Origin: Pseudomonadota bacterium | GTDB taxonomy: Bacteria; Myxococcota_A; UBA796; GCA-2862545 | Assembly: GCA_023954855.1 (NCBI GenBank) | Contig: JAGSGY010000001.1 | Location: 186,001-250,000, forward strand | Length of the DNA: 64,000 nt | Reading direction: 5' to 3' | In this document: positions 59,895 through 63,948 of the stretch, piece after piece | Position numbering within the stretch: the stretch's first letter is position 1 | How the letters are laid out: the number at the start of each line of letters is the position of its first letter | Translations under genes and position numbers: made by a program | Notes under the pieces: model-generated | What the model saw: the letters and a program-made list of their open reading frames with translations, nothing else | Databases searched by the model: none | Told to the model about the DNA's origin: nothing

Positions 59895-60116
59895 TCAGCC
59901 CTCCGAGGATGAGGAGGAGGACGAGCCGCCCCCGGGGGCGGAAGAGCCGTATCCATCCTTGTACCAACCGCCGCCCTTCAGGACGAAAGACGACGCCGAG
60001 ATGAGCTTGCGCACGGCGCCCTCGCACTCTGGGCAGGGTGGCGCATCATCGCTCATGCGCACCAGCTTCTCGAATCGGTGACCACAGGACTCACAGGCGT
60101 ACTCGTAGATGGGCAT
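59895..60116 (-). CDS. FmdB-family zinc ribbon protein
   Basis: This 73-residue protein starts [20 protein letters not shown] and has a second pair [13 protein letters not shown], the CxxC...CxxC zinc ribbon of FmdB-like regulators. The tail is Gly/Ser-rich ([13 protein letters not shown]). FmdB was named as a putative regulator of formamide and amide use; the family is otherwise poorly characterised. It leads the one-carbon operon. It is divergent from the hydrolase gene. Confidence 0.85.
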
Positions 60117-60275
60117 CTAGACCCCTCCCCTTGGCTTCGGAACCCGATATAGGTACGCACTGTCGCCCCGGCAACTAGACGCCACATCGGAGACACTATC
60201 GCGTCGATTCACTGGCTTCTCGTACCGCCCGTTGCGCTACTGACCTACAACGCCCTCGGAACCTTCGGCGGCTTT

Positions 60276-61016
60276 GTGGTGCTGCGCGCAGATCGCGCTG
60301 AGCCCGCTCCATTCGATGCCCACGGCGCCGCGCTGCTGATCCGAGAGGCCGCGGCACGCGCACTGATGACGGTGGTCCGGCCTCTGGGATGGGGCCAAGC
60401 CAAGCCGAGCGCCGACACCCGATCCTCACAGTTCAGCCGCACGCCGGTGCTTCTCGTTCCGGGAATCCGGCGAAACCGCTCGTCTCTGATGTTCCTGCGG
60501 CAGTTTCTGAAGCACCGCGGCTGGCGATGGGCCCACGCGGTCAATCATCCGCGCTCCGACCTCGGTCTCGCGGGCCTGGCGGCAGCCCTACACGAGCAAG
60601 TGGAGGCACTACGTGAAGCCTCCGGTGCCGATCAGATCGATATCGTGAGCCACAGCTACGGCGGCCTCGTCGCCGCCTGGTACGTCAAGCACATGGACGG
60701 CGACAAGCGGGTGCGCAGGCTCGTCACGGTGGGCTCACCCCTTCACGGCACGAAGATGGCGGTGTTCGGCCGAGGTCGTCCGAGCACAGAGCTGCTTCCC
60801 ACGGCACCGATTCTCGATGAACTCTCGCCCCTGCCGATCCGCACCATCTGCATCTGGAGCCCAGACGACCCGGTGGTCGTCCCGAGCCGTTCGGCGATCG
60901 CCACGGACGCCGAGTCGGTGCGCATCGAGGCGAGCGGACACGTGGACATGCTCGTCAGCGGACGGGTATTTCGCGCCGTACAGACCGCGCTTAGCGACGT
61001 GTCGGAGCCCGCTTGA
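60276..61016 (+). CDS. Alpha/beta hydrolase (lipase-like), anchored if the upstream start is used
   Basis: With the GTG at 60276 this is 246 residues. The hydrolase fold is seen in VLLVPGIRRNRSSLMFLRQF (oxyanion strand), QIDIVSHSYGGLVAAWYVKH (nucleophile elbow, GxSxG as SHSYGG), TICIWSPDDPVVVPSRSA (acid), and ASGHVDMLVSGRVFRAV (His). It resembles triacylglycerol lipases or palmitoyl-thioesterase-like enzymes. The frame is open upstream to 60153 without ATG, GTG or TTG. An ATC at 60198, five bases after GGAG, would add 26 residues that complete a membrane segment (IHWLLVPPVALLTYNALGTF). Its stop overlaps the TTG of the next gene (TTGA). Confidence 0.8.
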   Translation: MVLRADRAEPAPFDAHGAALLIREAAARALMTVVRPLGWGQAKPSADTRSSQFSRTPVLLVPGIRRNRSSLMFLRQFLKHRGWRWAHAVNHPRSDLGLAGLAAALHEQVEALREASGADQIDIVSHSYGGLVAAWYVKHMDGDKRVRRLVTVGSPLHGTKMAVFGRGRPSTELLPTAPILDELSPLPIRTICIWSPDDPVVVPSRSAIATDAESVRIEASGHVDMLVSGRVFRAVQTALSDVSEPA

Positions 61017-61927
61017 GCCTGTTTGATCATCAGCTCATCGCCGTGACAGGCAAAGGCGGCGTGGGGCGCACCACCGCGGCATGCTCGATCGCGCTCGCAG
61101 CTGCAGCCCAAGGAAAGCGCGTCTGCATCGCCGAGCTCGCAGGCCTCGCGCGCGTCCCCGAGGTGTTCGGCCTTCCTGGACGGTCTTACGCGCCCCAGCG
61201 CTGTGCCCCCGGGGTCGACACCATGTCGCTCTCCGCACTCGACTGTCTCGACGACTTCGGACGAAAGCGACTCAAGATTCAGGCGCTGGTGCGGCTCGTC
61301 TTCCACAACCGCCTGACTGCCGCATTCCTCGACGCCATTCCCGGCCTGCAGGACATGCAGCAGCTCGGCAAGATTCGGCACCTGATCGAAGAGTACGAGG
61401 GCGACGAGCCCCCCTACGACCTGATCGTGCTCGACGCTCCCGCCACCGGACATGGCCTCACGCTGCTCGACTCGGCGCGCTCCCTCGGCGAGATGACCCG
61501 GGTGGGTCCGTTCTACGAAGAGACCCAGCACATCGTGCGGCTTCTCTCCGACCCCGACCGAACGGCGATCGTCGTGGTGACCCTCGGTGAGGAGCTCCCC
61601 GTCAACGAGAGCCTCGAGCTGATCTCCAGTCTCGGTGAGGATCGCGCCCAGCTGGCCGCCATCGTAGCGAACCAGGTGCGCAGCCAGCCCCTTCCGGACG
61701 CCCCGCCCTGGCCGAAGCTGCGCGACGCCCTCGCCGCCAGCGACCAGACCGACCTGGTGTCTCTGGCAGACGCAGCCCAGTCGACGTGGACCTCGCAGGA
61801 GAGAGCTCTTGCGCGCCTCCGAACCACCATCGGCCTGCCCATTGCGCGACTTCCGCGATTGCCAGTCGTCGATGCCGAGTCACTGCTCATTCTCGCCGAA
61901 GCTGCTGAACAGCTGGAGGAGCCATGA
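61013..61927 (+). CDS. ArsA/Get3-family ATPase-like protein, first subunit, altered Walker A
   Basis: This 304-residue protein has the ArsA-type start LIAVTGKGGVGRTTAACSIA: the signature Lys14 is present, but the P-loop lysine is replaced by Arg19 (codon CGC). Switch regions are seen in YDLIVLDAPATGHGLTLLDS and IVVVTLGEELPVNESLEL. The family binds ATP at a dimer interface and in eukaryotes (Get3) handles tail-anchored proteins; in bacteria several roles exist, including metal handling. The start is a TTG overlapping the hydrolase stop. The second subunit follows by ATGA overlap. A paired arrangement like that in actinobacteria (Rv3679-Rv3680) is likely. Confidence 0.85.
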   Translation: MSLFDHQLIAVTGKGGVGRTTAACSIALAAAAQGKRVCIAELAGLARVPEVFGLPGRSYAPQRCAPGVDTMSLSALDCLDDFGRKRLKIQALVRLVFHNRLTAAFLDAIPGLQDMQQLGKIRHLIEEYEGDEPPYDLIVLDAPATGHGLTLLDSARSLGEMTRVGPFYEETQHIVRLLSDPDRTAIVVVTLGEELPVNESLELISSLGEDRAQLAAIVANQVRSQPLPDAPPWPKLRDALAASDQTDLVSLADAAQSTWTSQERALARLRTTIGLPIARLPRLPVVDAESLLILAEAAEQLEEP

Positions 61928-62964
61928 CCCGCGTCATCGTCTGTTGCGGCGTCGGCGGCGTCGGCAAGACCACGACCTCGGCAGCCCTCGCCGTGCGCCT
62001 GGCAAAGACGGGACACCGGGCCGTAGTGCTCACCATCGACCCGGCCCGCCGCCTCGCCGATGCACTGGGCGTCGAGCTCGGCAACGAGCCCCGCGCCGTG
62101 GCCATAGACGCTCCCGGCACGTTGCACGCGCTGATGCTCGATCGAAAGGCCACTTGGGATGGCATCATCCACCGCTTCGCTCCGAGTGCCGAAGCCGCGC
62201 AGCGCTTGTTCGACAACCGCTACTACAAAGCCGTCTCGACGCGCCTCGGCGGATCGCACGAGTTCATGGCGATGGAGAAGCTCTACGAACTGGTCGAATC
62301 CGAACGCTGGGACGTGGTCGTGGTCGACACACCGCCTACGCAACACGCCCTCGACTTCTTCAGAGCGCCAGACCGAGTGCATCGCGTCTTCGACCGGTCC
62401 GTGATCGGCATCCTTGTCGAGCCCGGCAAGGGCCTGTTCAACGCCGCGACCCGCAAGGTTGTCGGCGTGCTTCACCGCATGGCCGGAGAGCGCGTCATCG
62501 GCGACATCTCGGAGTTCTTCCGGCTGATGTCGGGCCTCTCGACCGGCTTCCGCAAGCGGTCACGTGCGGTGGCCGACCTGCTCTCGTCGGATCGCAGCCA
62601 CTACTGGCTCGTCACGTCCGCCTCGGCTCCAGCCCGCGCGGATGCGGTCGCTTTTCTGGCGGAGCTCGAGGAGCGGGAGCTGACGCTGCAGGGATTCCTC
62701 GTCAACCGCGTGATCCCCGACCCCGGCGAGCTGGCAGCCGAGCGTCCTGCAGACATCGGCGAAGCTGAATGGACCGAGTGGGGCCCCGCCTTCGACGCCC
62801 TGATCCACGCCCGCCGCAGCGAAGCCGCCCGTCACCGCGCCGGATTGGCCCAGCTCGCTCAGTCCTCGACCCACGCGAGCGTGCATCCTCTCCCCGACCT
62901 CGGCAGCGGAATCGCGGACCTGTCAGGTCTCGAGCGCCTCGCAGAGCACCTCCCCGACGTCTAA
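61924..62964 (+). CDS. ArsA/Get3-family ATPase-like protein, second subunit, lacking the signature lysine
   Basis: This 346-residue protein starts RVIVCCGVGGVGKTTTSAAL. The P-loop Lys15 is present, but the signature position is Val10, so it is a normal Walker A and not the deviant KGGxGKT form. It continues VLTIDPARRLADALGVELG, VVVVDTPPTQHALDFFRAPD (switch II), and LVTSASAPARADAVAFLAEL. The late part has HARRSEAARHRAGLAQLAQS. It overlaps the first subunit by ATGA at 61924-61927, so equal amounts are probably made. A stem-loop follows at 62971-62994. Confidence 0.85.
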   Translation: MTRVIVCCGVGGVGKTTTSAALAVRLAKTGHRAVVLTIDPARRLADALGVELGNEPRAVAIDAPGTLHALMLDRKATWDGIIHRFAPSAEAAQRLFDNRYYKAVSTRLGGSHEFMAMEKLYELVESERWDVVVVDTPPTQHALDFFRAPDRVHRVFDRSVIGILVEPGKGLFNAATRKVVGVLHRMAGERVIGDISEFFRLMSGLSTGFRKRSRAVADLLSSDRSHYWLVTSASAPARADAVAFLAELEERELTLQGFLVNRVIPDPGELAAERPADIGEAEWTEWGPAFDALIHARRSEAARHRAGLAQLAQSSTHASVHPLPDLGSGIADLSGLERLAEHLPDV

Positions 62965-62970
62965 AACAAC

Positions 62971-62994
62971 GAAGGCGGACCGAAGCCCGCCTTC
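62971..62994 (+). terminator. Weak hairpin after the ArsA-like pair
   Basis: GAAGGCGG (62971-62978) pairs with CCGCCTTC (62987-62994) with an eight-base loop. There is no T-tract, so intrinsic termination is uncertain. Confidence 0.5.
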
Positions 62995-63012
62995 AACCCC
63001 AACCCGTCGGCA

Positions 63013-63948
63013 TCAGCCGCCGAAGGTCGCCTCGCTGATGCAGAGGTCGTTGTACTCCTTGCCAGCCTTCACCTCGGTGAAGGTGAGCTTGACGGAGGTG
63101 GTCGTCTTGGCGCTGAACGGGATGACCTGGGGCATCATCGAGTTCTTGATGACGATCGACTCGGTCGAGCCGTCGGAAAAGGTCAGCGTGCCGCCCACAG
63201 CGCGGTTTGCCTTCATCCACAGCGGCATCGAGCCGCCGATTCCGTTGATAAGACTCAGCTTGGAGATGCGCGTGGACGCGCCAAAGGCGAAGTCGAGCGA
63301 CTGGCCGCTGCCATCACCGTCGTCGCCCTCACACCACATCGAGTCTTTGATGCCGTCGGCGACATTCGAGGGGTTGTAGTTGCCGTCGCCGTCCGCGGGC
63401 AGCTCGGTGGAGGCGGTGACCTCGCGAACCACCGGACCGTCGCCGCTCGCGTCAAACACCTGGATCTCGGAGATCACGGTATCGAGCCACGTCGAACCCG
63501 AGTGGATGCCCTTCACCTTGAAGCGAATGGACGAAGTGCTCTTGGGGCTCGCCAGATCGAGGACCTGCACCTCCTGAGCGTCGTCGAGCTTCCACGTCTG
63601 CTTGGTTCCATCCGAAAAGGACAGCTCCACTTCTTTGGGGCGATTGGCGCGGCGCCAGTAGTCGGTGCTGTACCAGTCGCCGGCCCACATCTTGATGCGG
63701 GTCACGTCCTGGCTCCCGCCGAGATCGAGCTCAATCCAGGAACCGAGGCCCGAGCCATCCTCGCCTTCGACCCAGGACTTTCCGTGCTTGCCGTCGATGG
63801 CGTGCGCGGCGTCGTAGGTTGCCCCTTCTTGAGGAGCGTAGGTCGAAGACGCCATTGCACCCGCAACCTTGATCTGGCCGGCGAAGGCCGTGGTGGAGAA
63901 CAGCGTCGCGCACAACGCGATCGTGAAGGTGGCGGAGTTGGCTCGCAT
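63013..63948 (-). CDS. Exported protein with two discoidin-like glycan-binding domains
   Basis: This 311-residue protein has a signal peptide (MRANSATFTIALCATLFSTTAFAG). Two homologous domains follow, about residues 25-165 and 175-311. Each has an ASSTYAPQ or ASTELPAD entry, an Asp-rich ADGIKDSMWCEGDDG or AIDGKHGKSWVEGEDGSGLG loop, a long core strand (WIELDLGGSQDVTRIKMW) and a SFSDGTK or TFSDGST hairpin. This pattern is that of the F5/8-type-C or NADase-type glycan-binding domain. It has no catalytic domain and is probably a secreted binding protein. An Arg-rich start and no lipobox argue for a soluble periplasmic or secreted form. Confidence 0.7.
   Translation of the reverse strand: MRANSATFTIALCATLFSTTAFAGQIKVAGAMASSTYAPQEGATYDAAHAIDGKHGKSWVEGEDGSGLGSWIELDLGGSQDVTRIKMWAGDWYSTDYWRRANRPKEVELSFSDGTKQTWKLDDAQEVQVLDLASPKSTSSIRFKVKGIHSGSTWLDTVISEIQVFDASGDGPVVREVTASTELPADGDGNYNPSNVADGIKDSMWCEGDDGDGSGQSLDFAFGASTRISKLSLINGIGGSMPLWMKANRAVGGTLTFSDGSTESIVIKNSMMPQVIPFSAKTTTSVKLTFTEVKAGKEYNDLCISEATFGG

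Follow-up and report, generated by a model that had tools for sequence, protein, structure and literature searches.

The question

Two adjacent genes in the window (the whole stretch of 64,000 nucleotides that was analysed) encode ATPases of the ArsA/Get3 fold, each lacking one of two lysines that such enzymes normally carry. How many working nucleotide sites can the two proteins form between them? According to PMC10248533, the signature lysine in Get3-type ATPases crosses the dimer to the nucleotide of the partner, while the P-loop lysine touches the phosphates within its own subunit, and Asp57 of Get3 aligns the attacking water. The first gene, here called A (61013..61927, plus strand, TTG start, 304 aa), carries the motif GKGGVGRTT, with the signature lysine in place (Lys14, 61052..61054, codon AAA) and an arginine at the P-loop lysine position (Arg19, 61067..61069, codon CGC). 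The second, B (61924..62964, plus strand, ATG start, 346 aa), carries GVGGVGKTT, with Val10 at the signature position (61951..61953, codon GTC) and an intact P-loop lysine (Lys15, 61966..61968, codon AAG). At the position of Get3 Asp57 in switch I, the alignment places Ala43 in A (61139..61141) and Asp39 in B (62038..62040).

An earlier note on this DNA had described the four residues of the two motifs, together with an ATGA overlap of the stop of A and the start of B (61924..61927, plus strand) and a TTGA overlap of an upstream lipase-like gene with A (61013..61016, plus strand). The codons agree with it exactly, and both overlaps are read directly from the sequence. A relative from the same genus has GKGGVGRT in A and GTGGVGKT in B; since it carries the same two deviations, a sequencing slip is excluded. 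In our opinion, A and B belong to the BagA/BagB family of bacterial Get3-like proteins and probably form an A:B heterodimer that is obligate and has a single complete composite site, a reading to which the pattern of sequence conservation points.

Family assignment

Both proteins pass the Pfam gathering score of PF02374 (24.3 bits), A with 77 bits and B with 107.6 bits. The best PDB match of A is 6bs3_A (92.6 bits) and that of B is 6bs3_B (226.7 bits). These are the Mycobacterium tuberculosis (Mtb) proteins Rv3679 and Rv3680 (BagA and BagB; PDB 6bs3-6bs5), which were crystallised as one A/B complex (6bs3) and are likewise encoded by two adjacent genes of the ArsA/Get3 fold. Rv3679/Rv3680 are said to be the subject of a 2019 J. 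Bacteriol. paper. AlphaFold models, which are single chains predicted from alignments of relatives, give the same assignment: the model of A (pLDDT 91.6) has 6bs3_A as its top structural match (Z 26.2, rmsd 3.2, 283 residues aligned) and that of B (pLDDT 86.8) has 6bs3_B (Z 31.4, rmsd 4.1, 332 residues aligned). In sequence and in fold, then, A is closest to BagA and B to BagB. Against the NCBIfam models, A scores 123.0 bits for BagA (NF053622, equivalog cut-off 400) and B 274.3 bits for BagB (NF053621, cut-off 521). Because these scores lie under the mycobacterial cut-offs, A and B are members of the family in the broad sense and not mycobacterial equivalogs. Together they make up a divergent pair within this known family of Get3-like ATPases.

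Several other assignments were considered and rejected. The canonical Get3/TRC40 subfamily (TIGR00345) gives 79.0 bits for A and 95.2 bits for B against a cut-off of 135, and the CXXC zinc motif, sought in both sequences, is absent from both. The ArsA arsenical pump ATPase (TIGR04291) gives 66.2 and 56.1 bits against an equivalog cut-off of 650, and the window has two separate genes. The family NF047398 shares the KGGVGR motif with A, which scores 27 bits for this model against a cut-off of 90; it is a different family, and a literature search for the string KGGVGR found no paper. A role in anti-phage defence is unsupported, the PADLOC matches being weak (about 20 bits) and mostly of P-loop size, and a search of viral contigs for close relatives returned no relative of A.

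Yeast Get3/TRC40 has the same fold (Z about 22-25) and the same layout of deviant Walker A, switch I, switch II and A-loop; however, it forms homodimers in which both sites are complete, and it carries a CXXC zinc motif, whereas the sites of A and B are asymmetric and CXXC is absent. In our alignment the yeast Get3 positions are numbered K26, K31, D57, D166 and N272, in agreement with the literature. The arsenite ATPase ArsA (1f48 and the 9nb-series) belongs to the same Pfam family, and its two ArsA-type domains form paired sites; but it is one polypeptide, and E. coli ArsA has GKGGVGKT in both halves, with neither the P-loop nor the signature lysine lost.

Which residues are constrained

With A as query we surveyed 285 genomes of the phylum and found relatives in 257. 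We read 110 loci from these genomes and 80 named loci from other organisms, which include Actinomycetota, Myxococcota, Bdellovibrionota, Acidobacteriota, Thermodesulfobacteriota and Planctomycetota. Membership of A or B was set by overall similarity and not by motif. The resulting alignments have 190 A rows, Mtb BagA included, and 178 B rows, Mtb BagB included. The signature lysine of A is kept in all 190; as the named set was found partly through a pattern containing this lysine, the unbiased count is 110/110, from the set found without such a pattern. The P-loop position of A is freer, with lysine in 154 rows, arginine in 35 and threonine in one. In B the constraint is reversed: the signature lysine is missing in 176 of the 177 relatives, its place being taken by S, A, T, P, C, V, L, D, R or G, while the P-loop lysine, the Mg-binding threonine and the switch-I aspartate are invariant (178/178). 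The same two lysines are constrained throughout these relatives (about 190 for A, 177 for B), and the pattern is therefore not a matter of chance.

The alignment with Rv3679/Rv3680 and Get3, proposed in the earlier note as a check, puts the window into this frame. Rv3680 lacks the signature lysine too (GAGGVGKTT) and so do 176 of 177 B relatives; Val10 is therefore ordinary for B and a trait of the family. Rv3679, by contrast, retains both lysines (GKGGTGKST) and has a glutamate as its switch-I acid, where the A protein of the window has Arg19 and Ala43. Of the two deviations, Arg19 alone is a derived feature of the window's lineage. The 'complementary loss' that the note had described is thus real in that both lysines are missing, but it is neither symmetric nor specific to this pair. 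It is the final stage of an asymmetry that runs through the whole family: B lost its signature lysine long ago and almost everywhere, and the replacement of lysine by arginine in A is recurrent and lineage-specific.

Two loci depart from the rule. In one from Planctomycetota (L213:3788-6213) A and B each have both lysines, the sole symmetric pair seen, which may reflect an ancestral-like condition or else a reversion. In another (L216:1-1089) the P-loop lysine of an A-type protein has given way to threonine (GKGGVGTT); all other replacements are arginine.

The remaining site residues of A are unequally kept. Aspartate occupies the position of Get3 Asp57 in only 25 of the A sequences; elsewhere the residue is mostly G, E, N, S, A or Q. 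A switch-I acid is present in 50 of 154 A proteins with lysine and in 4 of 35 with arginine (Fisher p 0.013, kinship ignored), a weak indication that the change to arginine may go with loss of the acid. Thr/Ser20, Asp141 and Asn220 remain conserved in A proteins of the arginine type.

A probable single complete site, and what A could still do

These constraints suggest a division of labour. B has all the elements that a subunit contributes to its own site (P-loop Lys15, Thr16, switch-I Asp39 and switch-II Asp135) and no signature lysine. A has the invariant Lys14, together with Arg19 in its P-loop and alanine at the catalytic aspartate position. In the closed dimer, Lys14 of A would reach the ATP on B and so complete the sole competent site. 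The earlier note had proposed precisely this heterodimer, with exactly one complete site built from the P-loop of B and the signature lysine of A, and the family-wide pattern of constraint predicts it as well. Ala43, in place of the switch-I aspartate of A and not mentioned in the note, is additional evidence for the one-site model.

The site of A itself retains a positively charged residue at position 19, as well as Asp141, Thr20, which binds Mg, and Asn220, which contacts adenine. Since arginine is almost the sole replacement and Thr/Ser20, Asp141 and Asn220 are kept, this site probably still holds a nucleotide. It would hydrolyse it poorly or not at all and may have a structural or regulatory role. 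That the P-loop lysine of A gives way nearly always to arginine while the signature position of B is free suggests that charge is kept at the site of A and that a trans lysine is unneeded there. With no trans lysine at its site, and usually no aspartate, A could spare its P-loop lysine more easily than B could, which would explain why this lysine alone was lost repeatedly.

Arginine at position 19, taken by itself, would be no proof that A is inactive, because Get3d of Nostoc (All4481; 3igf/8egk), with a natural arginine for the Walker A lysine and the signature lysine kept as in A, does hydrolyse ATP: PMC10248533 gives a kcat of 0.28/min for this protein, which has glutamate at the Asp57 position, against 2.7 for yeast Get3. 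Get3d differs from A in having been studied as a protein active by itself, in its extra C-terminal domain and in the absence of an A-loop, and the available portion of the same report describes no partner subunit. Hence the earlier note goes too far with respect to A in holding that neither protein should be active by itself. If arginine were tolerated, A would bind and slowly hydrolyse ATP, alone or in the complex, both sites would work, and the asymmetry would be one of rate only. The preference for arginine and the retention of the other nucleotide contacts fit this reading as well. We nevertheless regard it as unlikely, since in the window the switch-I acid is missing from A too, the site of A in a heterodimer would have no trans lysine in 176 of 177 cases, and the signature position of B varies freely, as expected if the site of A does without.

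The note had also named orthologues with both lysines in one subunit as evidence against the model. Literally taken, most A orthologues and Mtb Rv3679 are such proteins. In our opinion this is the wrong test, because B almost never gives a trans lysine to the site of A, and the one-site model is not refuted by them.

Other observations weigh on the lysines as such. The MinD-type protein MSMEG_3743 retained its measured ATPase activity unchanged when either lysine was replaced by alanine, and TadZ of E. rectale is active without either (PMC10482377). It is conceivable, then, that A and B act as a nucleotide-binding switch or scaffold with little need for hydrolysis, the lysines being retained because they serve binding or dimer formation. 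Conservation of sequence would indeed be no proof that hydrolysis matters. However, the switch-I aspartate is invariant in B and not in A, which points to hydrolysis being selected at one site, and we give the switch or scaffold a somewhat smaller chance than a slowly active A. Taken together, the activity of Get3d with its arginine, that of MinD and TadZ proteins without one or both lysines, and the symmetric planctomycete pair may be held against the one-site model.

Repeated loss of the P-loop lysine in A

The history of the arginine in A was traced on two trees. With the scored residue masked, a mixture-model tree of 111 A sequences requires 7 changes between lysine and arginine, of which at least 4 are forced by supported branches. 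A FastTree tree of all 190 rows, faster and rougher, gives 13 changes, at least 10 of them forced in the same way. Of the 14 A proteins from the family to which the window belongs, 12 have arginine and two (L012 and L013) have lysine; lysine within a mostly arginine family shows the state to be labile. In B, no loss of the P-loop lysine occurs among the 178 rows.

Pairing of A and B across genomes

A adjoins B in 72 of 110 loci. In the 36 genomes that have A and no linked B, a B-like match was found elsewhere every time, strong in 35 and weak in one (G060, 56 bits). Conversely, only 2 of 20 genomes without A have a clear B, one of them beside a fragment of A. The co-occurrence is significant by Fisher's test (p about 1e-18, relatedness ignored). 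That A and B are not partners at all, each forming homodimers or pairing with another SIMIBI ATPase, might be argued from the lack of linkage between the two genes at roughly one in three of the loci sampled, but this is highly improbable given their near-perfect co-occurrence, the ATGA overlap, the crystallised complex of the Mtb homologues and a search of the window's own genome that found no further A- or B-type, nor other ArsA/Get3-type, paralogue.

Some loci have unusual arrangements. In a Myxococcales MAG (fen_1127; L202:3383-5989) A and B lie in a single open frame, which is possibly a natural A-B fusion or could be a frameshift error of the assembly. One family, f17 (L067, L068, L071, L080, L102 and L110), has an A of the arginine type without an adjoining B; here A follows a gene of one shared cluster about 1 kb upstream, whose member in L067, the one scanned, has response-regulator and HD domains. 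Four unlinked B genes of f17 genomes (L142, L145, L146 and L147) have aspartate at the signature position (GDGGVGKT).

The upstream hydrolase and the neighbourhood

The gene that overlaps A from upstream (60276..61016, plus strand) encodes a lipase-like alpha/beta-hydrolase (PF00561, 35 bits; PF02089, 34.5 bits) in which candidates for the serine (SHSYGG), aspartate and histidine of a catalytic triad are present. Its first standard start is GTG at 60276. However, the frame is open from 60153, and 60153-60276 encodes a hydrophobic segment common to relatives (e.g. L009). The true start may thus lie upstream, perhaps at a non-standard codon, and the protein may be membrane-anchored. Within the same order (families f1, f2, f5 and f6), 23 of 42 loci have a homologue immediately ahead of A, as do a few further loci from the same class or from Myxococcota; it was not found in the remaining loci searched. 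This conservation among relatives of the order and class supports the suggestion of the earlier note that the gene may belong to the same system. Mtb BagA/BagB differ in this respect, and the hydrolase is plausibly an operon partner in the window's lineage and not a core part of the BagA/BagB family. Outside the order and class, several clusters of neighbours are without a Pfam match and no shared functional context was found.

On the minus strand, divergent from the hydrolase-A-B set, a frame at 59940-60116 has two CxxC pairs, like FmdB-type zinc-ribbon proteins. Downstream, a convergent gene (63013-63948, minus strand) has a signal-peptide-like N-terminus and, by eye, apparently two discoidin-like repeats, and between it and B there is a terminator-like hairpin (62970-62995). 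A scan for sigma-70 promoters found nothing.

Implications

If A and B work as proposed, their dimer, like that of Get3, would open and close with the cycle of a single hydrolysing site and act on a client that is probably membrane-related. At a guess, the overlapping hydrolase, possibly membrane-anchored, could be a partner or the client. In Mycobacterium, bagAB is tied to glycerol and nitric-oxide toxicity and to survival on citrate and streptomycin (PMC10597346, PMC12216072), phenotypes that do not yet define the client.

The wider proposition, for and against which we see the case as evenly balanced, extends this mechanism to all BagA/BagB-type pairs, which occur in at least six bacterial phyla: as a class they would be obligate, asymmetric heterodimers of the Get3 kind that hydrolyse ATP at one composite site only. 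One subunit would donate the trans lysine and have a non-hydrolysing nucleotide site of its own, with its P-loop lysine lost many separate times. A proteins of the arginine and lysine types would then be a natural experiment on the relevance of the site of A. If the pattern holds, it tells which site of BagA/BagB hydrolyses ATP and at which individual residues a change should destroy the complex's activity or leave it unharmed, and it accounts for the joint occurrence of the A and B genes. This conserved but uncharacterised Get3-like complex would then have a mechanism that can be tested directly.
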